A stretch of DNA of 64,000 nucleotides from Candidatus Gastranaerophilales bacterium (lineage in GTDB: Bacteria; Cyanobacteriota; Vampirovibrionia; Gastranaerophilales; Gastranaerophilaceae), in the NCBI GenBank assembly GCA_944327225.1, contig CALVGZ010000008.1, forward strand, positions 1 to 64,000, given 5' to 3'. Position 1 is the first letter of the stretch. The number at the start of each line of letters is the position of its first letter. The translations under genes were made by a program, and so were the position numbers. This document shows, piece by piece, positions 24,949 through 53,300 of the stretch. The notes beneath the pieces are model-generated. The model did not search any database and was not told the origin of the DNA. It saw only the letters and a program-made list of their open reading frames with translations.

Positions 24949-25168
24949 TATTGAATTTTACGATATTTGTTATATTTTATCAGGTTTTTTTGTGGCAAGT
25001 ATTGTTTTTGGTTTTTATGTTTCTAAATTAAAAAAAGAAATTAAAATTTTAAAAAGACAGTACGAAAAAAAATCAATAGGTGCTGATGATTCTTCTTTAA
25101 GAGTTAAAACTCTTGAAAATAAAATCCAGACTCTTGAGGCTGCCTTGAAAAAACAAATGGGAAATTAA
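24938..25168 (+). CDS. Small membrane protein with coiled coil
   Basis: 76 residues: one membrane segment (about 9-30, CYILSGFFVASIVFGFYV) followed by a basic stretch and a heptad-patterned helix to the end (LRVKTLENKIQTLEAALKKQ). It overlaps the end of the pseudouridine synthase gene by 11 bases and uses an AAGGAG ribosome site in it, so it is probably the last gene of that operon. It converges on flhA with a four-base overlap. Function unknown. Confidence 0.75.
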   Translation: MNINIEFYDICYILSGFFVASIVFGFYVSKLKKEIKILKRQYEKKSIGADDSSLRVKTLENKIQTLEAALKKQMGN

Positions 25169-27252
25169 TAGCCTTCTCCAATTGTATCAATTGCTTCAAC
25201 TCTAATATCGGTTATAAGTTCCGAGTATGATATAACTACAATGGTTGGAATGTGTCTTTCGAGCATTTGGTAGAGCGGGAGTCTTATTCTTGGTGAACAT
25301 AATATGACGGGTTGAACACCTACTGCTTGTTGAGCACGCATAAGAGTGTTTGCCGTTAATTCAATTAATTCTTGAACTTGCATAGGATTTAAAAGAAACA
25401 TTGTTCCAAGTTCTGTTCTTTGGCAACTGTCATCAAGAATTTTTTCCCATTCACTTGATAAGGTTAAGGCATAAAGAACTTTTTCTTTATTGGAATTAGA
25501 TAGGCAAATTTGTCTTCCTAAAGCTGCTCTTAACCTTTCCGATAAAATATCTGGTTCTTTCGAAAAGCGTGCATAATCACAAAGCCTTTCAAAAATAAAG
25601 ATAATGTCTTTTATTGAAACCTTTTCTCTTATTAAGTTTACGAATATTTTTCTTAAATCTGAAGTTGAAATTATTGTTGGAACAAGGTCATTAACAAGTG
25701 TTGGGTCTTGAGATTTAACAAGTTCCATTAATTTTAGAACATCGGTTTTTGTCATTACTTCATCTACATATTTTCTGACACATTCTTGCAAATGTGTAAC
25801 AATAACGTCAACAGCGTCTACTGCTTGTATTTTGTCATTTTTATTTATATGTTGAGGATTCAGCCAATAAGCTTGAGATTGGAATGTTGGCTCAATAGAA
25901 ACTATTGCATTGTCGGGTAATTTTTTCCCTAATGCATCATATTGATCAGCTATTACCATTAATTTCCCCGGGTAAACTGTTCCTGTTGCAACGGGGTTTC
26001 CCCTGATTGAAATTAAATATTCGTTATCGCCTATGGCGGATGAGTCCATTATTCTGATGTTTGGAATGATGTATCCGAGATTGTCGGTTATTCTTTGGCG
26101 AAGAGCGGCAATTTTAGCTAATAATTGTCCGTCTTGTTCCGGATCTGCTATAACAAGAAGTCCTGCTCCGACTTGTAATGATAAAACATCAACTCCAAGT
26201 CTTTCATACATTTTGTTCGGGTTAACTAAGTCTTGCATATTTTGTTTTACTGCATCAAGTTGTCCTAATTGTTGCTGGACATCAAGATTTACTAAAACGG
26301 ATAAACCGCCAAGAATTAAAATAACTGCGAAAACAACAAATGGTAACCAGGGAAGTCCTGTTATTCCGGATGTTAGAGCGATAAGAATTAAAAAACCGGA
26401 CGCTAAAAATAAGCTTGTTGGTTTTGATAGTATTTCCATTGCAAGATCAGAGCCGAGAGCAACTCCGCCGCCTGTTGCACGTGTCATTACTATACCTGAT
26501 GATATCGCCATTAAAAGAGAAGGTACTTGAGCAGCTAAGCCGTCTCCTATCGTTAGAATTGTATATTTTTGTACGGCATCTGCGGGTTGCATTCCATTCA
26601 ATAAAATACCGATAATTAAACCGCCTACAATATTTATTATTGTAATTATGATACCAGCTATTGTGTCACCTTTTACGAATTTCATTGCACCGTCCATAGA
26701 GCCAAATAAACTTGATTCTCTTTGGAGTTCTTCACGTCTTCTTACAGCTTCATCCGGTGAAATTAAGCCTGCGTTAAAATCGGCGTCAATGGTCATTTGT
26801 TTACCTGGCATAGCATCGAGTGCGAATCTGGCAGAGACTTCTGCTATACGTTCAGCACCTTTTGTTATAACCATAAATTGTACAACAGTGATGATTAAAA
26901 ATATAACCCCGCCTACAACCATATTTCCGCCTGTTACAAAGTGTCCGAATGCTTCGACTACTTGACCTGCGTCGCCTTTTGCCAGAATAAGACGAGTTGA
27001 TGCTATTGATAAAACTAATCTAAAAACTGTACCGATAAGTAATATAGAAGGGAAGGCAGCAAGTTCTAAAGGTTTGTTAACGTATAATGATATCATAAGT
27101 AAAACAACACCAAGAGTTATGTTAAAACTTATCGAAAAATTTATAACCCAGTTTGGCATTTCGAGTAGTAAAACTAAAATTAAAATTATTACAAAACCTG
27201 CAAGAGCAATTTCACTCAAGGGATTTGAATTAGCTTTGGGTGGAGCTGCCAT
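25165..27252 (-). CDS. flhA: Flagellar type III export gate protein FlhA
   Basis: Core of the flagellar export gate: about eight N-terminal membrane helices (residues 10-325) and a cytoplasmic domain that forms the nonameric docking ring (about 345-695). The FHIPEP signature region is seen in RLVLSIASTRLIL and the cytoplasmic segment FALDAMPGKQMTIDADFNAG (residues near 145-165). The C-domain contains TSDLRKIFVNLIREKVSIKD. It is full length at 695. A strong AAAGGAGG lies at the end of fliH, with only three bases between the genes. Last gene of the operon. Confidence 0.98.
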   Translation of the reverse strand: MAAPPKANSNPLSEIALAGFVIILILVLLLEMPNWVINFSISFNITLGVVLLMISLYVNKPLELAAFPSILLIGTVFRLVLSIASTRLILAKGDAGQVVEAFGHFVTGGNMVVGGVIFLIITVVQFMVITKGAERIAEVSARFALDAMPGKQMTIDADFNAGLISPDEAVRRREELQRESSLFGSMDGAMKFVKGDTIAGIIITIINIVGGLIIGILLNGMQPADAVQKYTILTIGDGLAAQVPSLLMAISSGIVMTRATGGGVALGSDLAMEILSKPTSLFLASGFLILIALTSGITGLPWLPFVVFAVILILGGLSVLVNLDVQQQLGQLDAVKQNMQDLVNPNKMYERLGVDVLSLQVGAGLLVIADPEQDGQLLAKIAALRQRITDNLGYIIPNIRIMDSSAIGDNEYLISIRGNPVATGTVYPGKLMVIADQYDALGKKLPDNAIVSIEPTFQSQAYWLNPQHINKNDKIQAVDAVDVIVTHLQECVRKYVDEVMTKTDVLKLMELVKSQDPTLVNDLVPTIISTSDLRKIFVNLIREKVSIKDIIFIFERLCDYARFSKEPDILSERLRAALGRQICLSNSNKEKVLYALTLSSEWEKILDDSCQRTELGTMFLLNPMQVQELIELTANTLMRAQQAVGVQPVILCSPRIRLPLYQMLERHIPTIVVISYSELITDIRVEAIDTIGEGY

Positions 27253-27255
27253 TTG

Positions 27256-28053
27256 CTATAACCCTCCTTTGTATATCCCGAAAGCATTTTGCAATATTGC
27301 AAGTTGAGTTTTAAAGTTGGCATCAATTACGCCATTGTTTGCTATTATTAAGCAACTTCCTTTTTCAATTGTTTGGTCTTCATTTATATTTATTTTAACT
27401 GTAATTTTTTTTGCTTCAATTATTTCAGGTAATGAAGCAGCGGCAAACTCTGCATCTTCAGGGTTTACTTTTATGGTGATTTTTTCAGCATCCGAATTTA
27501 TTTCTTCAAGAGTAGACATAATTATGTTTTTTAAAATATCTTCGTTGGTTTCCACTTCTTTTTTAATAATTTTTTTTGCAATTTCAAGCGAAATTTCCAT
27601 TATATGCGGATAAAATTCTCTATACATTTCATCTTTCAGGGATAAAAATTCACTTAATGAAGATTTAATTTCTTCTATTTCTTCTTGTGCTTTTCTAAGA
27701 CCGTTTTGATATCCTTCGCGAGCGGCAAGTTCTTTAATTGAGTGTGCTTCAGCTTGAGCTCTTGAAACAAGGGAGCGTTCATCTATTCTTCTATATCCTC
27801 TGCGTCTGTCTCCTCTTCTTCTTTCAATTCTTTCTTTAAAATCGATGCTTGAAATATCTATTTTTTCAAAAGTTTCTTTTTCTGTATTTAATAAATTTTT
27901 GTTTTGCTGAGAAGTTGTTTCTTGGTCTTTTTCATTTGATTGTTTTGCATTCGAAATTAAATCTTCTTTTTTTATTACATTACCTTTTAAAGTCGAAGAT
28001 TGTTTAGCGGATGATTTTTCTTTTTTTTGAGATATTTTATTTCTTATAATCAT
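27256..28053 (-). CDS. fliH: FliH-like flagellar export ATPase regulator
   Basis: 265 residues. The N-terminal ~75 are low-complexity and charged. A long helix (EGYQNGLRKAQEEIEEIKSS) follows, and the C-terminal domain (about 140-262) has the FliH/YscL pattern EISLEIAKKIIKKEVETN ... IKVNPEDAEF. FliH binds the ATPase FliI and delivers substrates to the gate; FliI itself is not in this window. ATG overlaps the stop of the upstream gene (ATGA), so the two are translationally coupled. Confidence 0.85.
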   Translation of the reverse strand: MIIRNKISQKKEKSSAKQSSTLKGNVIKKEDLISNAKQSNEKDQETTSQQNKNLLNTEKETFEKIDISSIDFKERIERRRGDRRRGYRRIDERSLVSRAQAEAHSIKELAAREGYQNGLRKAQEEIEEIKSSLSEFLSLKDEMYREFYPHIMEISLEIAKKIIKKEVETNEDILKNIIMSTLEEINSDAEKITIKVNPEDAEFAAASLPEIIEAKKITVKININEDQTIEKGSCLIIANNGVIDANFKTQLAILQNAFGIYKGGL

Positions 28054-29003
28054 GAAACATTTTCTTCTAAATATTTAGATATAACATCTGCAACATAGGC
28101 AGGAATTTTGCATCTTTTTTTATCATAGCAAGATAAAATAAAATCAACCACAGCAGGTCTTTCGTTTTTAATAATACTCAAAATTTCGTTTTTGTCCGAA
28201 TTTTTAACAATTTTATACATTTTTTTATAAGCTTTATCATAACTCACGATGACAGCCTCCGGAAGTGTATTTTTTATTTCATCAAAGCATCTTATAGTCG
28301 CTTTTATATCTAATTTTTTTTCTAAATCAGGCATTTTTAAGTATTTTATCAGTACATCTCTTTCTGGTTTGTTAAATTTCATTAGAATGTTTTTAGTTTT
28401 TTCACTTGAAAAATTTTTCATTAAAATAGCTAAAGATGCAAGCTTAATTATTTTTGCATCACTCATTGAAGCAATTTCTGCGGTTGTTTCTTCTTCAACT
28501 TGTTCTTTTGCCATAGCATCAATATTTGATTGTGAAAGAGCATTTGATGAAGTTTGTTCCGTTATTATGCCTTTTTCTTTTAAGTCGCTTATTGCTTTAG
28601 AAAAACACTTTTTAACATGTGCTTCGACAAGGGTTATTAATTGTTCTTGCGGAATTTTATTTTCAATTGCTTTTTTTGCAATATCAAAAACGGTAAAGGC
28701 AATTTTTTGTAGTATTCCTTCTCTAAATTTTGGTTCAATTTCAGCACGTATAATGTCTATTGATTTATGGAAAATCCATTCGCCTATAAATTGCGTTACA
28801 AGACTTGCTTCCTGAGCGTTTAGTTTTGAATTTTCTTCTTTTACAAGTGCATCACCTGACATTTTGCAAAATCTGTATATGATTTCAACAATAAATTCTC
28901 TGTCAGGTTTTTTAATATCGGCAGGAATAACTTGGCTTGCTTGACTTGAAAGGTCTTTTGCAAACGCTTCATAATCAAATTTTTTTAAATCCGTTTCTGC
29001 CAT
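28050..29003 (-). CDS. Divergent FliG-like protein between FliF and FliH
   Basis: The gene occupies the fliG position (fliF - this - fliH). I set the start at the ATG at 29003 because AAAGGGGAGA lies just before it and FliF ends 15 bases upstream; a longer frame from 29039 would overlap fliF. The protein has 317 residues and is almost all helical. A stretch near residues 195-240 (ASLAILMKNFSSEKTKNILM) resembles the FliG middle-domain pattern, and the end (ERPAVVDFILSCYDKKR) is loosely like FliG-C. The usual EHPQ motif and the charged torque helix are not seen. It is probably the switch/C-ring protein in a diverged form, though another basal-body role is possible. Confidence 0.6.
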   Translation of the reverse strand: MAETDLKKFDYEAFAKDLSSQASQVIPADIKKPDREFIVEIIYRFCKMSGDALVKEENSKLNAQEASLVTQFIGEWIFHKSIDIIRAEIEPKFREGILQKIAFTVFDIAKKAIENKIPQEQLITLVEAHVKKCFSKAISDLKEKGIITEQTSSNALSQSNIDAMAKEQVEEETTAEIASMSDAKIIKLASLAILMKNFSSEKTKNILMKFNKPERDVLIKYLKMPDLEKKLDIKATIRCFDEIKNTLPEAVIVSYDKAYKKMYKIVKNSDKNEILSIIKNERPAVVDFILSCYDKKRCKIPAYVADVISKYLEENVS

Positions 29004-29020
29004 TCTCCCCTTTATCCGTT

Positions 29021-30724
29021 TTATGTGCTTTCGATCCAATTTTTAATTTTTTCTATTGCTTCATTTTCGTCTATGCTGTTAAAATCTGTTTCTAATTCAT
29101 CAATAACATCTGAAAGATTATGTTTTGGTGCAGACTGAGCAACTGATTTTGCTTGTTCAAGTGCAAGAGCATATTGATTTTTTTGTTCAATGAAACTTTG
29201 GGCCATTTGTTCTTGTTGGGCAATTAGACTGGAGGCTTGATTTGTAACATCTTTTAATTGCTGTTCTTGAGAAGCTGCAATTTGTTTAAGGTATTCAAGT
29301 TCTTCTTCTTGTTTTTTTGCTTCATCTTTAACTTTTTTTCCAATATGAGTAAGACCTGCTATGAGTCCTGCAAGAAGAATTGAACCCACCAGCCACCAGG
29401 GATTTCCTGATTCTGCCGGTTTCGGAAGTTCATTTTCTTTGTCGGGAGCTAAAACAAGACTGTTTGATTCTACAAAAGCGATAGAAACATCTTCGGGGTT
29501 AACTTTTGGACTTGCCGCACTTGCAATCAAGCTTTTAAGTTCATATAAGCTCATATTGGTTGGTATTGCACTTTCTTCAATTGAAACTGCAACAGTAATT
29601 TCTTCTATTGTTCCTGCTTGCATATATTCGTTTATTTGAGTTTTTGAAACCCCGTATTGTGTTTCAGTTGCCGTTCTTGAATATTGTCTGTCTTGAGATG
29701 AGGCACCCGATTGGATTCCCGTCTTTATTCCGTTTGGTACATATACGCTAACCGGATTCATTCCTGAAGAAGACAAATCATTTTGGTTGTCGCCTAAATT
29801 TTCCTTAAAGCGTTGTTCTGTTACTGAGGTTTTTTGATTGGGGTCGTATAAAATACTTGTTTTTTCAATGGGTGCTTGTTTTAAGAATGTAGAAACGGTA
29901 GCAATATAATTTCCTTTTCCAAGCAATCTGTCTAATTGAGCATTTACTTTTGATTGCATGTATTTATCGTTTTCTTCAAGTTTAGCTATTGCGTCATCAG
30001 ATGCTCCGATTATTGAATTATACACTGTTCCGTTTGTGTCTGTTATTGATATATTATCTGATTGAAGCCCGTGGACTGCTCCTAAAAGCAAATTTGATAT
30101 GGCTTTAACTTTCATATTATCAAGTCTTTCACCTGAAGGCATAGTGATTTGTACAGTTGCCGTAATTGGTTTTTGATCTTGAGAAAAGAAAGTTTGTTCA
30201 GGAATTGAAATAAAAACTTGGGCATTTTCTATAGGAGGTATTTTTCTTATTAGTCTTGCTAATTCACCATTTATTGCTCTTATAAGACGAATTTTTTTGT
30301 CGTCTTTTGTTGAAGTGAAATCACCCTTATCAAAAATTTCAAGTCCGGTGTGTTCATCCATAAGACCGCTTTTTACAATGGCTAATAAGGCTCTATCTCT
30401 TTGGTCTTTTGTGTATTCTTTTAATACTATACTTACTTTTGAACCGTTTTCGACTTTTGTGGCTGTAATTTGTTCGCGAGCTAAAAGTGCTTGCACTTCA
30501 AGAGCTTTACCTGTGTTATCTGTTGTGAAAAGTGTAACGGGGTCATTTTTAATTACTTGTTCTGCTGCTTTTATTTTTCCTTCTTGAGAAGTCGGGTTTG
30601 CCATACTTGTACTTAAAGCAATAACCATCATAATAAACATTATTACGACAGCAACTCCACAAATTATTATTGTGTAGAAAAGAGGCTTATTTTCAGTTAT
30701 TTGTTTTAGGTCAAATTTTTCCAT
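29021..30724 (-). CDS. fliF: Flagellar MS-ring protein FliF
   Basis: Forms the membrane MS ring. A membrane helix at about 14-36 comes first, then the YscJ/FliF ring-building motif domain (about 45-220, including LLAREQITATKVENGSKVSI), a periplasmic collar region (about 230-400), a second membrane helix (about 432-452, NPWWLVGSILLAGLIAGLTH) and a long cytoplasmic coiled coil with an acidic C terminus that would hold the FliG-type protein. The length of 567 is typical. No clear ribosome site precedes the ATG; the 56-base gap from fliE is AT-rich. Confidence 0.96.
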   Translation of the reverse strand: MEKFDLKQITENKPLFYTIIICGVAVVIMFIMMVIALSTSMANPTSQEGKIKAAEQVIKNDPVTLFTTDNTGKALEVQALLAREQITATKVENGSKVSIVLKEYTKDQRDRALLAIVKSGLMDEHTGLEIFDKGDFTSTKDDKKIRLIRAINGELARLIRKIPPIENAQVFISIPEQTFFSQDQKPITATVQITMPSGERLDNMKVKAISNLLLGAVHGLQSDNISITDTNGTVYNSIIGASDDAIAKLEENDKYMQSKVNAQLDRLLGKGNYIATVSTFLKQAPIEKTSILYDPNQKTSVTEQRFKENLGDNQNDLSSSGMNPVSVYVPNGIKTGIQSGASSQDRQYSRTATETQYGVSKTQINEYMQAGTIEEITVAVSIEESAIPTNMSLYELKSLIASAASPKVNPEDVSIAFVESNSLVLAPDKENELPKPAESGNPWWLVGSILLAGLIAGLTHIGKKVKDEAKKQEEELEYLKQIAASQEQQLKDVTNQASSLIAQQEQMAQSFIEQKNQYALALEQAKSVAQSAPKHNLSDVIDELETDFNSIDENEAIEKIKNWIEST

Positions 30725-30780: not shown

Positions 30781-31095
30781 TTAAATCTGAATTTGCATTA
30801 TTTTCTCATACGTTTGAAGGATTTTACCTGTTATTGTTGTTGCGGCTTGAACTGTTAATTCAGATTGTGCTATTGCTGCCATAACGTCGTGTACATCAGC
30901 TTTTCCTTGCATAGCGTCAATTGTAAGTTTTTCGGGTTTATTTGTTACTTCGTTCATTTGAACAATCATATCCGAGATAACATCTTTAAAATTTTTAACA
31001 TTAGTTTCCTCTGAATTAATTGAAATATTCCCGTTTAATTGAATAGGCTCAATTGAATTCATTTTGAAAAAATTAACTTGGTTTATTTTATCCAT
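30781..31095 (-). CDS. fliE: Flagellar hook-basal body protein FliE
   Basis: Links the MS ring to the rod and is among the first export substrates. 104 residues; the conserved C-terminal half includes DVHDVMAAIAQSELTVQAATTI and ends KILQTYEKIMQIQI, as in FliE. No signal peptide, as expected for a type III substrate. AAAGGGAT ribosome site; ten bases after the transglycosylase gene. Confidence 0.93.
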   Translation of the reverse strand: MDKINQVNFFKMNSIEPIQLNGNISINSEETNVKNFKDVISDMIVQMNEVTNKPEKLTIDAMQGKADVHDVMAAIAQSELTVQAATTITGKILQTYEKIMQIQI

Positions 31096-31105
31096 TTTTA
31101 TCCCT

Positions 31106-31762
31106 TTATAGATATTGTGCTAAAATTGCTTTTACATAATTTTGAGTTTCTTTATATGGTGGTATTCCGTCATATTTATCTACGGTTCCGGGGCCGGCAT
31201 TATAGGCAGCAAGTGCTAAAATTTTATTTCCGTTATATTTATCCAGCATTTGTTTTAAATATTTCACTCCGCCTTCAATGTTTTCTTTCGGATCAAAGAC
31301 ATCATTTACTCCAAGATGTTTTGCCGTTAAAGGCATTAGTTGCATTAATCCTTTGGCACCCGCTTTTGAGACGGCATTGGGGTTAAAACCCGATTCTTGC
31401 TTGATTAATGCTTTAATCAATTTTTCTTCGACTCCATATTTTTCGCTTGCATCTTTGATATATCCCAAGATGGCAGTTTCAGATTTATCTGATGATGCTG
31501 AAATATTTTTTGAAAGGGAACCGAAAGGCAACGGTTTTATTTTTTTAACATTTGGCGGGGGGTCAAGTTCAAATATGCTCGGAGTCTTGTTTTCTTCTTT
31601 TGATTCAGCCAAAATCTCTTGAAAAGCATTTAGGTTTTTTGTTTGTTCAATGTTTTCTTTGGGATAAATAGAGTTAATATAATTGTTTAGCTCATTTACT
31701 CGGCTAAAAGCCTGCATTTGACCTGATGAATTGATATAGTTTTGAATTTTAGGACTGAACAT
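31106..31762 (-). CDS. Lytic transglycosylase (SLT domain) of the flagellar operon
   Basis: Cleaves peptidoglycan strands. The SLT domain is at about residues 95-215, with catalytic E123 in [13 protein letters not shown], then [11 protein letters not shown] and [14 protein letters not shown]. The ~90-residue N-terminal part is polar with no hydrophobic signal peptide. First gene of the operon, directly before fliE. An SLT enzyme here probably clears peptidoglycan for the rod, the job of FlgJ or SltF elsewhere. Lack of a Sec signal suggests export through the flagellar apparatus itself. AAGGGGA ribosome site. Confidence 0.92.
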
Positions 31763-31892: not shown

Positions 31893-33020
31893 TTAATTAT
31901 TGAAATTTATAACATCAGGATTAATAGCAAGCCATTTATATGTTTCGGTTTCTTCTTGAGGCATTTCGGTTATAAAAATTCCGCCTGTTTTTCCTCTTTT
32001 TGAAATTAAATATTTGTTTTCAAACATTTCAGCCAATGCTCGTCTTATTGTATTCGGACTGACATTTAAAATGATTGCAAGTTCTCTTATCGGAGCAATT
32101 TTATCTCCTATTTTATAGTTTTCAATTATATATTTTTTTAAATGAGAAAGAGCTTTTTGCCAAGAATAAACATAATTTTGAGGAATTAAATTTTTTCTTC
32201 TATCGGAGCTTATAAAATCTGTTTTTTTGTTTTTATTGTTTCCTAAATATATTGTTCCGTACCTTCCTCTGCGAGAAAGTATTATTTTTTTTGCATTTAA
32301 TATTTTCATTGCATCGTTAACAGTTTTAATACTGACATCAAACATTCTTGAAAATGCCATATTTGGCAGAATTTTTTCTCCCGTTTTGTATGTTTTTTCA
32401 ATATATTTTTGAATTTTATCAACAAGTTGGTGAGTTAGAGTAAAATTTTCATCATTTATTCCGTTTATTATTTCTTCTTTTGTTAATTCAAATTCTTTTA
32501 TGTAAATCCAGGAAAATTTGTTTCCTCTTAAGGAAATTTTTTTTAAATATCCTTTATTTGCAAGATTAATGAGGCTGAAACGAATTGTGTTTTGAGAGAT
32601 ATCAGTCATTTCGGATAATTTTTTTATGCTTGGAAGTGCAGAATTTAATTTTATTCCCTCGTCAAGAACAAGTTTTTTGATTTTGCATTCAGTTAGAGTA
32701 CCATGATAAAGCTCATCCTGTTGTTTTATATCTTTTGAGTAGAAATCAGCAATACTGGTTCCTATTGATTGTTTTGAACTTAAATATCCTAGATTTTTTG
32801 CTTGCCTGATAGAGTTTTGGATAGTTGCAGTTGAAACATTTAAAAAAGAGGCAAGAATTTTTTTTGAAGGAATAAAATCGCCAATATCAGCTATACCGCA
32901 TTCTAAAGAATGCTTGACCCACTCTATAAGCCAAGAAGTCACTGCCTGACCTTTTGGAATTTTTAAAATATGAAAATCAGGTTTGGCTATTTTTATGTCA
33001 TCTAATGTTAAATGTTTCAT
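31893..33020 (-). CDS. Regulator built of four tandem GntR-type winged-helix domains
   Basis: 375 residues with no effector domain, only repeated winged helix-turn-helix units. Unit 1 is about 25-92 (IPSKKILASFLNVSTATI, GYLSSKQSIGTSI). Unit 2 is about 107-175 (ALPSIKKLSEMTDISQNTI, GYLKKISLRGNKFSW). Unit 3 is about 194-260 (ILPNMAFSRMFDVSIKTV, ILSRRGRYGTIYL). Unit 4 is about 288-352 (IAPIRELAIILNVSPNTI, YLISKRGKTGGIFI). Each has the GntR order: helix, turn, recognition helix with N/S-T-(I/V), then a wing ending in a G-x-I/T-F strand. It lies directly upstream of the flagellar operon on the same strand, 130 bases away. It may control that operon; this is inference. Confidence 0.85.
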   Translation of the reverse strand: MKHLTLDDIKIAKPDFHILKIPKGQAVTSWLIEWVKHSLECGIADIGDFIPSKKILASFLNVSTATIQNSIRQAKNLGYLSSKQSIGTSIADFYSKDIKQQDELYHGTLTECKIKKLVLDEGIKLNSALPSIKKLSEMTDISQNTIRFSLINLANKGYLKKISLRGNKFSWIYIKEFELTKEEIINGINDENFTLTHQLVDKIQKYIEKTYKTGEKILPNMAFSRMFDVSIKTVNDAMKILNAKKIILSRRGRYGTIYLGNNKNKKTDFISSDRRKNLIPQNYVYSWQKALSHLKKYIIENYKIGDKIAPIRELAIILNVSPNTIRRALAEMFENKYLISKRGKTGGIFITEMPQEETETYKWLAINPDVINFNN

Positions 33021-42176: not shown

Positions 42177-42185
42177 TGTTAAAAT
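42177..42185 (+). promoter_or_regulatory. Extended -10 of the FlhA-C paralogue gene
   Basis: TG-T-TAAAAT at 42177-42185, six bases before the ATG at 42192, without a Shine-Dalgarno. It is the same nine bases, at almost the same distance, as at 8177-8185. Confidence 0.5.
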
Positions 42186-42191
42186 TGTTTT

Positions 42192-43703
42192 ATGAGTAAA
42201 TTTAGACAAGAATTTTCAATAAAACAAGTTCCGACAGATGACCCGCTTTTGTTGCAAAATACTTTGAATGCAATGTCAAACGGGGGTTTTGAATTGTATT
42301 CAATTTATGAAGCAGAGCAAAATTCGAAGGTGGTTTATAATTGTATTTTTGTTAAGGAAAGTGAAAATTTATCGGATGAAATTGATGATGATCTTATAAA
42401 TTTTCGTTCTCAAGTTGAAAAAATGCTGTATTCAAAAGAAGAACCATATGAACTTTGTTTAAATCTTCAAAAGAAAATAAGGGATAAAAAAGAAAAAATT
42501 GAACGTGTAAAAAAGTTTCTTGAAAGTTCTAAAGATTCGGAGCGTGAACTTTTAAATGATGAGATAAAAAAAGATATTGATGATTTGAATGATTTAAAAC
42601 GAGATTTAAAAGAGGTTTTGGCTCCTTCTCAGATGTCTAAATTTTTAGGTGAAGAAAAGCTTTCAATCAATTTATCTCAGGAAAATTATTGTCTTTGTGA
42701 TTATCAGGAAGAAAAAAATCTTTTGTCCCAAACGGTAAAAGTTAGACAGGAGTTAACTAAAGAACTTGGATATATTATTCCGAAGGTGCAGTTTATAGAA
42801 AATTCTTCCTTGGATGAGTATGAGTTTACAATAAATGTTCATGGGGTTAGTGTAATTTGTGCTAAGGCGTATCCTAATCATTTAGCTTTTTTTGAGGATG
42901 AGTTAAATATAGAAAGAGTTCCGAATAATTCTTATAAAACAAAAGATCCTTTAACCAAAAGGAAAATGATATGGATTTTAAAAGATGAATGCGAAGATTA
43001 TTGGATTCAAGGATTGGAACCTGCAGAGTATATTGCAAATTATTTAAGTTATTTTGCAATTGTTCATGTTGATGAAATTTTTGATTATGGTGATTTGAAT
43101 CGCTACGTGGATTTTGTAACCAATAAAAATTCGTTTTTAGTTGAAACAATTTTGGGTGAATTTGTAAGTGTTTCTGAGTTGAAGTATATTTTAACTCAAT
43201 TAATTAGAGAAAGGGTCAGCATTAAGGATATAGTTTTTATTTTTGAAAAATTAAATGATTTTTCAGATGATACAACCAAAGCCGATTTGCTGGATAGGCT
43301 TAGAATGGCACTTTCAAGACAAATTTCAGAAAGTGTTGCAACAAAAGAAAAAGAAATTTTTGCTTATGAAATAGATGACGAGACGATTGAATTACTTGAA
43401 AGACAAGCAAACAAAGAAGAAAACAGCGTTAAAATTGATTTATCAAAGTTTGGAAAATTTAAAAAAGTTTTAAAAGAAATGAAAAAAGATATAATTGAAA
43501 AAAACGCTGTCTTAATTGTTCCTCAGCAGTTTAGGCAAATTATTTTTATTCTTGTTTCACAGTTTTTTATGGATATTCCGGTTATTTGCTTTGAAGAAAT
43601 TGCAAGTGATTATAAATTAAATATTATTGAAAAATATAGTTATTTGCTTTGTATTGTTCTATTATATTTGAATTATAAGTTTTGTTTTATTGATAATTAC
43701 TAA
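42192..43703 (+). CDS. Free-standing FlhA cytoplasmic-domain paralogue
   Basis: 503 residues with no membrane segment in the N-terminal 480. Residues about 185-495 match the FlhA C-domain collinearly. QELTKELGYIIPKVQFIENS corresponds to FlhA's RITDNLGYIIPNIRIMDSS. SVSELKYILTQLIRERVSIK corresponds to STSDLRKIFVNLIREKVSIK, and VLIVPQQFRQIIFILVSQFF to the end block of FlhA. The first ~180 residues hold a short alpha/beta stretch and a charged coiled coil (about 95-140). FlhA-C docks chaperone-substrate complexes at the export gate. A soluble copy may be a competitor, adaptor or cargo binder. Unlike FlhA it lies alone, next to tRNA-Lys. Confidence 0.85.
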   Translation: MSKFRQEFSIKQVPTDDPLLLQNTLNAMSNGGFELYSIYEAEQNSKVVYNCIFVKESENLSDEIDDDLINFRSQVEKMLYSKEEPYELCLNLQKKIRDKKEKIERVKKFLESSKDSERELLNDEIKKDIDDLNDLKRDLKEVLAPSQMSKFLGEEKLSINLSQENYCLCDYQEEKNLLSQTVKVRQELTKELGYIIPKVQFIENSSLDEYEFTINVHGVSVICAKAYPNHLAFFEDELNIERVPNNSYKTKDPLTKRKMIWILKDECEDYWIQGLEPAEYIANYLSYFAIVHVDEIFDYGDLNRYVDFVTNKNSFLVETILGEFVSVSELKYILTQLIRERVSIKDIVFIFEKLNDFSDDTTKADLLDRLRMALSRQISESVATKEKEIFAYEIDDETIELLERQANKEENSVKIDLSKFGKFKKVLKEMKKDIIEKNAVLIVPQQFRQIIFILVSQFFMDIPVICFEEIASDYKLNIIEKYSYLLCIVLLYLNYKFCFIDNY

Positions 43704-43722
43704 AATTTATCCATAAAAAATT

Positions 43723-43795
43723 TGCGTCTGGCGCGATTCGAACGCGCGACCTATCCCTTAAAAGGGGAGTGCTCTACCTGCTGAGCTACAGACGC
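43723..43795 (-). tRNA. tRNA-Lys (anticodon UUU)
   Basis: 73-nt cloverleaf on the minus strand. The acceptor stem is GCGTCTG/CAGACGC, the D arm GCTC-AGCAGGTA-GAGC, the anticodon stem CTCCC/GGGAT and the loop CTTTTAA with anticodon TTT. The T arm is GCGCG-TTCGAAT-CGCGC and the discriminator is A. CCA is not encoded. The first pair of the anticodon stem is mismatched (C-U), otherwise all stems pair. Upstream of its 5' end lie the tandem repeats. Confidence 0.97.
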
Positions 43796-44036
43796 AAACT
43801 TTATACTTTATTTAATTTTCAATTGTCTTATCTCAGCAGGTAGAGCATGTGCTTTTATTTACCGTTTCAGCGAGCTTCACCGAGTGCTGAGCTACAGACG
43901 CAAACTTTATACTTTATTTAATTTTCAATTGTCTTATCTCAGCAGGTAGAGCATGTGCTTTTATTTACCGTTTCAGCGAGCTTCACCGAGTGCTGAGCTA
44001 CAGACGCAAACTTTATACTTTATTTAATTTTCAATT
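43782..44036. repeat. Tandem 106-bp repeats made from tRNA-Lys fragments
   Basis: Two identical 106-bp units (43782-43887 and 43888-43993) and a partial third of 43 bp (43994-44036). Each unit starts with the reverse complement of tRNA nucleotides 1-14. At offset 51-66 it has CTCAGCAGGTAGAGCA, the tRNA D arm in the opposite orientation. Read in the tRNA direction, copies 2 and 3 begin like the tRNA (through nucleotide 17) and then jump past the D loop, between two GCA triplets, to CTC before diverging. The units lie in the 5' leader of the tRNA transcript. They are remnants of local duplication, not functional tRNAs. Confidence 0.95.
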
Positions 44037-52004: not shown

Positions 52005-52979
52005 ATGGAAAATCAGAATTTTAATTTAGATGAAGATATAAATGAAGGCGATAATTTTAATTTGGAAGTTTCTGTTTCCGATGAATTTAAAAGAGGCTGC
52101 AAGTTATATAACTTTAGACGTCCTGATAAATTTTCAAAAGAACATTTAAAAGCCTTACAGGATATTCATAGAGATTTTGCACGTCATTTGGCGACCGTTA
52201 TGACGGGTTATCTTAGAATGGAAGTTGAGATAGACGTTATTTCCGTTGATCAATTGACTTATGAAGAATATATTTGTTCAATGCCATCACATGTACAGAA
52301 TATGATTTTTAAATTAAATCCTTTGTCCGGTGAAATTTCTATGGGAATGAGTCCTGAGGTTTTAGCTGTAGTATTGGATAGGATGCTTGGCGGTTCAGGA
52401 GTTGTTAATGATCACGGCAGGGAATTAACACAAATAGAAGAACTTTTAACAACAAAATTTGTGGAAAAAATCATTAAAATATTGGAAGAAGCTTGGGGAA
52501 CTATTTTGCCTGTTAAGTCAGAGTTTGTAACTTTAGCAAACGGGTATCATTCAGTTCCTATTACAACAAGCGGCGAAATTGTTACTTTAATTTCATTCGA
52601 AGTTCGTTTGGGACAGAAAAATTTTGGTTTAATGAATATATGCTTTCCGTACCCTGTTTTAGAAACAGTTTTGCCTAAGTTGACTCCTCAGTATATATAT
52701 CAACATGCTAGTGTTGCAGCAAACGAAATCGGAAAAAATGAAACCTTGGAAAAAATTAAAGGTGCCGAACTTGAAATGCAGGTAATTTTGGGTATGGCAA
52801 ATGTTGAAATAAATGATGTATTGGATTTAAAGGTTGATGATGTAATTAAATTGGATCAAAAATTAGACAAGGAGCTTGTTGCTTGTGTTAATAAAAAAAG
52901 AAAATTTTTTGTTGTTCCGGGAAAAATTCAAAATAAAATTTGTGTGAAAATTGTTGATCAGTATCATGAAAAGGAGTAA
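52005..52979 (+). CDS. fliM: Flagellar motor switch protein FliM
   Basis: C-ring protein that binds CheY-P and connects FliG to FliN. The middle CheC-like domain (about 45-235) starts with YNFRRPDKFSKEHLKALQDIH and includes GEISMGMSPEV and LDRMLGG. The C-terminal SpoA domain (about 250-320) reads MQVILGMANVEINDVLDLKVDDVIKL. The N-terminal CheY-binding segment (LSQDEIDALL in most FliM) is replaced by an acidic stretch, NFNLDEDINEGDNF, without the usual motif. 324 residues; a TTTAGG-type site precedes the ATG. Confidence 0.95.
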   Translation: MENQNFNLDEDINEGDNFNLEVSVSDEFKRGCKLYNFRRPDKFSKEHLKALQDIHRDFARHLATVMTGYLRMEVEIDVISVDQLTYEEYICSMPSHVQNMIFKLNPLSGEISMGMSPEVLAVVLDRMLGGSGVVNDHGRELTQIEELLTTKFVEKIIKILEEAWGTILPVKSEFVTLANGYHSVPITTSGEIVTLISFEVRLGQKNFGLMNICFPYPVLETVLPKLTPQYIYQHASVAANEIGKNETLEKIKGAELEMQVILGMANVEINDVLDLKVDDVIKLDQKLDKELVACVNKKRKFFVVPGKIQNKICVKIVDQYHEKE

Positions 52980-52982
52980 ATT

Positions 52983-53300
52983 TTGTCTTTAGAGCCTCAA
53001 AATCTTGATATAACAAAATTGGAAAGTGTAGAAAAGCCTGTAAAAGTTGCTAAATCTAAGACATATAATCTTTTACTTGATGTTGAGCTTGAACTATCGG
53101 CAATTTTAGGTGAAACCGATATATCTTTAAAAAAAGTTTTAGATTTAACAAAAGGCTCTATAATTGAGCTTGATAATAAAACAATTAAACCGATTAAACT
53201 TCTTGCAAACGGTTCTGAAGTTGCAAGAGGCGAAGTTGTTATTATTGAAGATAATTTCGGTTTGAGAATTACTGATATCTCGGAAAAAAGAATAGTATAG
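52983..53300 (+). CDS. fliN: Flagellar motor switch protein FliN
   Basis: 105 residues, starting at TTG 52983 with AAGGAG six bases upstream, at the end of fliM (three bases between). One SpoA domain (about 28-102): LLLDVELELSAILGETDISLKKVLDLTKGSIIELD, then GSEVARGEVVIIEDNFGLRI. Forms the lower C-ring and docks FliH. The TTG start is the only one in frame before the domain. Confidence 0.95.
   Translation: MSLEPQNLDITKLESVEKPVKVAKSKTYNLLLDVELELSAILGETDISLKKVLDLTKGSIIELDNKTIKPIKLLANGSEVARGEVVIIEDNFGLRITDISEKRIV

Follow-up and report, generated by a model that had tools for sequence, protein, structure and literature searches.

A soluble counterpart of the FlhA cytoplasmic domain conserved across Candidatus Gastranaerophilales and its apparent descent from a non-flagellar export gate

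In flagella and injectisomes, the cytoplasmic domain of FlhA (FlhA-C) serves as the sorting platform, and it is known as the inner half of a membrane protein. What, then, is the same domain doing as a separate gene in Candidatus Gastranaerophilales, an order of non-photosynthetic cyanobacterial relatives found mostly in guts? The question arises from one stretch of DNA of 64,000 nucleotides (the window; GenBank assembly GCA_944327225.1, contig CALVGZ010000008.1, positions 1 to 64,000), in which a preliminary description made from the letters alone had singled out an open reading frame as a soluble, free-standing FlhA-C paralogue and had proposed a profile search, a structure comparison, and a survey of related genomes as checks. 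The frame is intact and encodes 503 residues (Table 1). Pfam FHIPEP matches the protein with an E value of 5.3e-47, residues 129 to 474 corresponding to profile positions 321 to 656 of 657, that is, to the C-terminal half of the profile only. BLASTP against the full-length FlhA of the window gives 1e-42 (28% identity over 295 residues), and a PDB sequence search returns the C-domains of FlhA and SctV (best, 3e-26). An AlphaFold model built with 44 orthologues (pLDDT 79) matches FlhA-C crystal structures in Foldseek with an E value of 2.6e-21 and a TM score of up to 0.83 when normalised by target, so that profile and structure both place the protein with the cytoplasmic D1-D4 region of the FHIPEP family. 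The N-terminal membrane half of FHIPEP proteins, with its roughly eight helices, is absent from it, as judged by the start of the profile match and by a hydropathy scan in which a single marginal peak stands out (residue 449, within D4), versus eight in full-length FlhA. Scores against the curated equivalog models are below their cut-offs for both FlhA (TIGR01398, 148 bits; cut-off, 772) and SctV (TIGR01399, 94 bits; cut-off, 692). The identity of the protein as a FlhA/SctV cytoplasmic domain without the transmembrane part is firm.

Its domains run from a beta-alpha-beta-beta head (residues 4 to 58) through helices and the end of the FlhA linker to D1-D4, and the second half of the helical hairpin continues into the linker. 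The preliminary description was right that the alignment with FlhA-C is collinear from the linker to D4, but the aligned part begins near residue 140 or earlier rather than near 185, and the last 21 residues, which had been counted up to about 495 as part of the domain, are a tail produced by a shifted stop in this genome: its copy has one G fewer than L004, and relatives end at residue 482. Likewise, an N-terminal part of about 180 residues with a coiled coil had been called new; a new part and a hairpin are there, but only the domain of about 58 residues and the hairpin are unique to the protein. Directly downstream lies a tRNA-Lys(ttt) gene (43722-43796, -), about 18 nt beyond the end of the tail.

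Modelled alone, the head keeps its beta-alpha-beta-beta fold. It may be of the DUF4177 (PF13783) pattern, whose profile matches 19 of 44 orthologues at E ≤ 1, although the matches are weak (best, 3.2e-4) and the copy in the window is itself unmatched. Among PDB folds nothing matches below 1e-3; the resemblances seen, to dodecin-like and KCTD-like topologies, are weak. Nine head residues are invariant (L25, N26, M28, L35, Y36, E40, C51, I52, and F53) and point to a conserved core or surface.

Table 1. Features of the soluble FlhA-C gene and of the neighbouring export operon in the window. System A is the second flagellar-type export set described in the text.
Feature	Position	Strand	Basis
Full-length FlhA of system A	25165..27252	-	FHIPEP 1e-213; orthologues in flagellin-less genomes; clade apart from flagellar FlhA
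FliH of system A	27256..28053	-	Pfam FliH 2.8e-22
FliG/SctK-position protein of system A	28050..29039	-	Conserved in the system A loci read; no Pfam or significant PDB match
FliF of system A	29021..30724	-	YscJ_FliF 9.8e-36
FliE of system A	30781..31095	-	Pfam FliE 5e-15
Transglycosylase (SLT), system A operon	31106..31762	-	SLT 2.6e-37; homologue beside fliE or fliF in L059, L158, L159
Putative extended -10 box TGTTAAAAT	42177..42185	+	Ends 6 nt before ATG; leaderless-type promoter; aligned upstream regions
Soluble FlhA-C paralogue gene, 503 aa	42192..43703	+	Open reading frame; FHIPEP 5.3e-47; order-wide orthologues; dN/dS 0.05-0.07
Beta-alpha-beta-beta domain (aa 1-58), DUF4177-like	42192..42365	+	AlphaFold pLDDT 90; DUF4177 in 19/44 orthologues
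Helical hairpin/coiled coil (aa 67-142)	42390..42617	+	Helices 67-79, 85-112, and 115-142 in AlphaFold model
FlhA cytoplasmic domain, linker end and D1-D4 (aa 145-480)	42624..43631	+	Pfam, PDB sequence search, Foldseek, alignment with E. coli FlhA
C-terminal tail (aa 483-503), copy of this genome	43638..43700	+	1-nt shift at the usual stop; DNA comparison with L004/L005

The survey of relatives found the gene conserved across the order, not decaying. It is present in 144 of 145 near-complete Gastranaerophilales genomes (the exception is G029), and almost all relatives have an orthologue with this domain layout; it is also absent from G030 and from the less complete G054. Pairwise dN/dS between this copy and those of congeners is 0.05 to 0.07 (about 0.06) over the gene and similar in its two halves. 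In the other orders of the class that were sampled, no match of orthologue strength was found even though full-length FHIPEP proteins are encoded there, and no copy came up in those sampled genomes of the class that encode no FHIPEP protein. Order-wide presence, low dN/dS, and absence elsewhere point to a gene that is order-specific, as far as sampled, and under strong purifying selection. The claim that it is not a broken flhA is therefore sustained. The stop shift and 21-residue tail might suggest a decaying copy or an assembly artefact, but full-length orthologues span the sampled genera of the order, both gene halves are constrained, and the new N-terminal domain is itself conserved; decay as a general explanation is refuted, and we regard decay or artefact in any form as scarcely credible.

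The FlhA encoded in the window had been taken for the flagellar one, and this assignment does not stand. The genome holds three FHIPEP C-domains: the soluble one, that of the window flhA, and one on contig 21, where flhA is grouped with genes for FliP and FlhB (L033). Only 48 of the 145 genomes have flagellin, and sets of the contig 21 type are what these flagellin-positive genomes carry in addition; FliP, present in 144/145, occurs as a rule in two copies with flagellin and in one copy without. The operon of the window flhA, with FliE, FliF, FliH, and the transglycosylase, is present in flagellin-less genomes as well, together with a second operon encoding a FliN-like protein, FliO, FliP, FliQ, and FliR. 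The true flagellar flhA is thus the one on another contig (contig 21), and the window flhA, with orthologues in flagellin-less genomes and a place in a separate clade, is not the flagellar copy. We call the universal set (FliE, FliF, FliH, FliI, FlhA, FlhB, FliO-R, a FliN-like protein, and rod-like proteins) system A. Among 35 genomes selected for a closer count of components (25 flagellin-less, 10 flagellin-positive), FlhB, FliI (above its cut-off), and rod-type proteins were found in all 35, and FliG_C only in the 10 flagellin-positive ones (0/25 flagellin-less). By gene content, system A would qualify as a non-flagellar type III system, its export apparatus kept without filament and motor genes. 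Earlier papers noted that the flagellar gene sets of such genomes are incomplete and took this to mean that function had been lost (PMC4040986; PMC5877343). Neither a second type III set in this order nor a soluble FlhA-C turned up in the literature searched.

Several features in and around system A are recorded here as observations. The protein between fliF and fliH, in the FliG position, carries a motif EWxFHKSxD, matches no Pfam family, and has no significant match in the PDB. At about 160 residues, the system A FliQ is roughly double the normal size and carries additional sequence at its C terminus (L154 8864-9352 and homologues). In genus g6, genomes G113 and G119 each encode a pair of full-length FlhA proteins scoring as system A (L198, L199, L207, and L208) and a third, also full length, that is weaker and scores like the flagellar one (L216 and L217). 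Beside the system A operon of the window lies a gene for a 375-aa protein with four tandem GntR-type helix-turn-helix stretches (31893-33020, -). Adjoining FliM and FliN genes are found apart from that operon (52005-53300, +) and probably represent the flagellar switch.

We compared the C-domains in a maximum-likelihood tree (LG+C20; 41 rows, 13 of them soluble copies). All 13 soluble copies form one clade (100/100). On a long branch, and again at 100/100, that clade joins the order's system A FlhA and related FlhA proteins from other orders, apart from both flagellar FlhA and E. coli FlhA. In the other orders of the class sampled, six genomes of three families have a system A type FlhA that is 63 to 66% identical to that of the window. 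Flagellar FlhA as the parent is rejected by the tree and by the AU test (p = 1.4e-5). A union of the soluble copies with only the order's own system A FlhA is borderline (p = 0.047), which means either that the duplication may predate the order or that the long stem of the soluble clade (1.34) misplaces it. Individual residues tell the same way: seven states are common to soluble copies and system A FlhA only, among them a linker methionine at position 353, and two are common to soluble copies and flagellar FlhA only. R391 and a P-x-x-M linker signature occur in both the soluble copy and system A FlhA, and the soluble copies retain 23 positions at which system A FlhA hardly varies. Tree, test, and residue states together indicate that the soluble copy descends from the system A FlhA lineage.

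The positions on which FlhA-C relies in flagella have fared differently. In E. coli/Salmonella numbering, D456, F459, and T490 belong to the dimple that docks chaperones, and G368 belongs to the GYXLI switch (PMC8166844, PMC5932034, PMC9431611). In all 13 aligned soluble copies, F459 is replaced (by T, S, I, K, or L), T490 is lost and variable, and G368 is S or E; the aligned full-length copies, of system A and flagellar alike, keep F/Y459, T490, and G368. D456 and R391 are retained in the soluble copies. Domains D3 and D1 are best kept (mean identity among soluble copies, 50% and 44%), and D2 and D4 are the most eroded (D4, 30%). Given the loss of F459, T490, and G368, the soluble protein is unlikely to dock chaperones in the flagellar manner; binding or ring contact through D1 and D3 would be the natural reading of what was preserved.

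The gene's predicted promoter, an extended -10 element ending 5 to 7 nt before the start codon, recurs in 50 of 62 closer relatives and in none of 53 more distant ones, against 31 of 951 background genes. The leaderless promoter of the preliminary description is thereby borne out in the closer relatives; the counts support a leaderless-type promoter within this part of the family, not a general property. No neighbour of the soluble gene was found to be conserved order-wide, and a conserved operon partner was rejected as a candidate, the neighbours varying by groups of genera (a PSP1 protein, a phosphorylase, a transporter, HAD, and fliJ). The gene had also been placed far from flagellar genes, which is true of the window but not of one genus (G040 and G045), where fliJ-fliK-flgD-flgE follow it at a distance of 147 bp and in the same orientation (L041 5989-11676).

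Only that adjacency hints at a connection with flagella. Both FlhA-C and its linker are bound by FliJ (PMC8166844), and the soluble protein might serve the true flagellum as a regulator or substrate adaptor, either by drawing chaperones, FliJ, or FliH-FliI away from flagellar FlhA or by influencing switching. We consider this quite improbable: 96 of 97 flagellin-less genomes keep the gene, FliG_C being absent as well where tested, a union with flagellar FlhA is rejected, and the chaperone dimple residues are lost. The related suggestion that the protein competes for or delivers flagellar cargo is not supported either, given the loss of F459 and T490 in every aligned soluble copy and the persistence of the gene without flagellin. 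The best supported of the options first put forward is action in a second, non-flagellar system, since the gene is kept in flagellin-less genomes and its product groups with system A FlhA.

Our preferred reading, to which we give a probability of about 0.5, is that the soluble protein is an order-specific accessory subunit or adaptor of system A, that is, of a non-flagellar, flagellar-type export gate. A duplicate of system A FlhA would have lost its membrane half and gained the DUF4177-like domain and the helical hairpin. Its product would be active in the cytosol, next to the FlhA ring of system A or attached to it, with the retained D1 and D3 surfaces binding FlhA-C or its partners, the hairpin multimerising the protein or extending the linker, and the head recruiting or sensing a partner; the role would be that of an adaptor, cap, or regulator, not of a chaperone-docking gate. 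Counting against this reading, no conserved neighbour ties the gene to system A, and one genus has flagellar neighbours instead. Nearly every genome has both system A and the soluble gene, so their co-occurrence carries little weight, and G029 (98% complete) and G030 (93%), which keep system A FlhA without the soluble gene, indicate that system A is not strictly dependent on it.

A more specific possibility, raised in the preliminary description as a mixed ring and given a low probability here, is that the soluble copy is a stoichiometric structural subunit in or on the nonameric FlhA-C ring of system A and switches the substrate class. Ring contacts run through the linker, D1, and D3 (PMC8166844), the last two being the best-kept domains, and the linker signature and R391 are common to both proteins; against this, the Salmonella/E. 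coli linker residues E351 and W354 are preserved in neither the soluble copy nor system A FlhA, and a few genomes without the soluble gene keep system A. We give about the same low probability to the idea that the order as a whole might possess a motor-less flagellar-type machine whose gate combines a membrane-bound FlhA with a soluble, new-headed FlhA-C in a mixed or stacked ring, unlike any known type III system. Rather unlikely, in our view, is exaptation for a role unrelated to type III export, such as a cytosolic scaffold or signalling protein. A solitary gene with unrelated neighbours in different genera, a long stem branch, fast evolution, lost functional FlhA residues, and a head resembling a domain of unknown function would all fit it; however, the whole four-domain FlhA-C fold and the 23 positions shared with system A FlhA are kept, and the gene was not seen where sampled genomes of the class have no FHIPEP protein.

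A further fusion protein, in genus g31, speaks for the preferred reading. Of about 590 residues (L209-L214; e.g., L210 1498-3279, -), it joins in one chain a homologue of the FliG-position domain (hhalign, 2e-19), roughly two membrane segments by prediction, and an FlhA-C of system A that has no D2 and is 38 to 49% identical to system A FlhA. It is a second, independent detachment of system A FlhA-C, this time linked to another system A part, and shows that system A employs this domain more than once as a module.

How does the soluble protein compare with known systems? With FlhA-C (FHIPEP, PF00771; 6ch1, 3a5i, 7amy) it shares the four-domain fold and collinearity from linker to D4; unlike FlhA, it has no membrane half, carries an added head and hairpin, has lost F459, T490, and the GYXLI motif, and scores far below the equivalog cut-offs of both FlhA and SctV. 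The cytoplasmic domain of SctV/YscV (7alw, 6wa6) has the same fold and detectable homology, but the match is weaker than to FlhA, and in injectisomes SctV is a full-length membrane protein. For gut Melainabacteria, an incomplete set of flagellar genes has been described (PMC4040986); what they carry appears to be a coherent second export machine that has neither filament nor FliG_C, and the "flagellar remnants" of these common gut commensals are therefore probably a working secretion system. The closest relative of the soluble copy by tree and shared residues, linker signature included, is system A FlhA, which is full length and membrane-bound, about 79% identical across genera, and keeps T490 and G368, in contrast to the fast-evolving soluble copy at about 28% identity to it. 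A precedent that works alike is FlhB2/FlhX (HP1575) of Helicobacter pylori, a free-standing homologue of the FlhB C terminus reportedly called a "spare part" by Wand et al. in 2006 (cited in PMC3040844): there, too, a detached cytoplasmic domain of the export gate is kept as a gene of its own. The gate protein differs, being FlhB there and FlhA here. Kept across a whole order, the detached FlhA-C suggests that the sorting platform itself can be split and reused.
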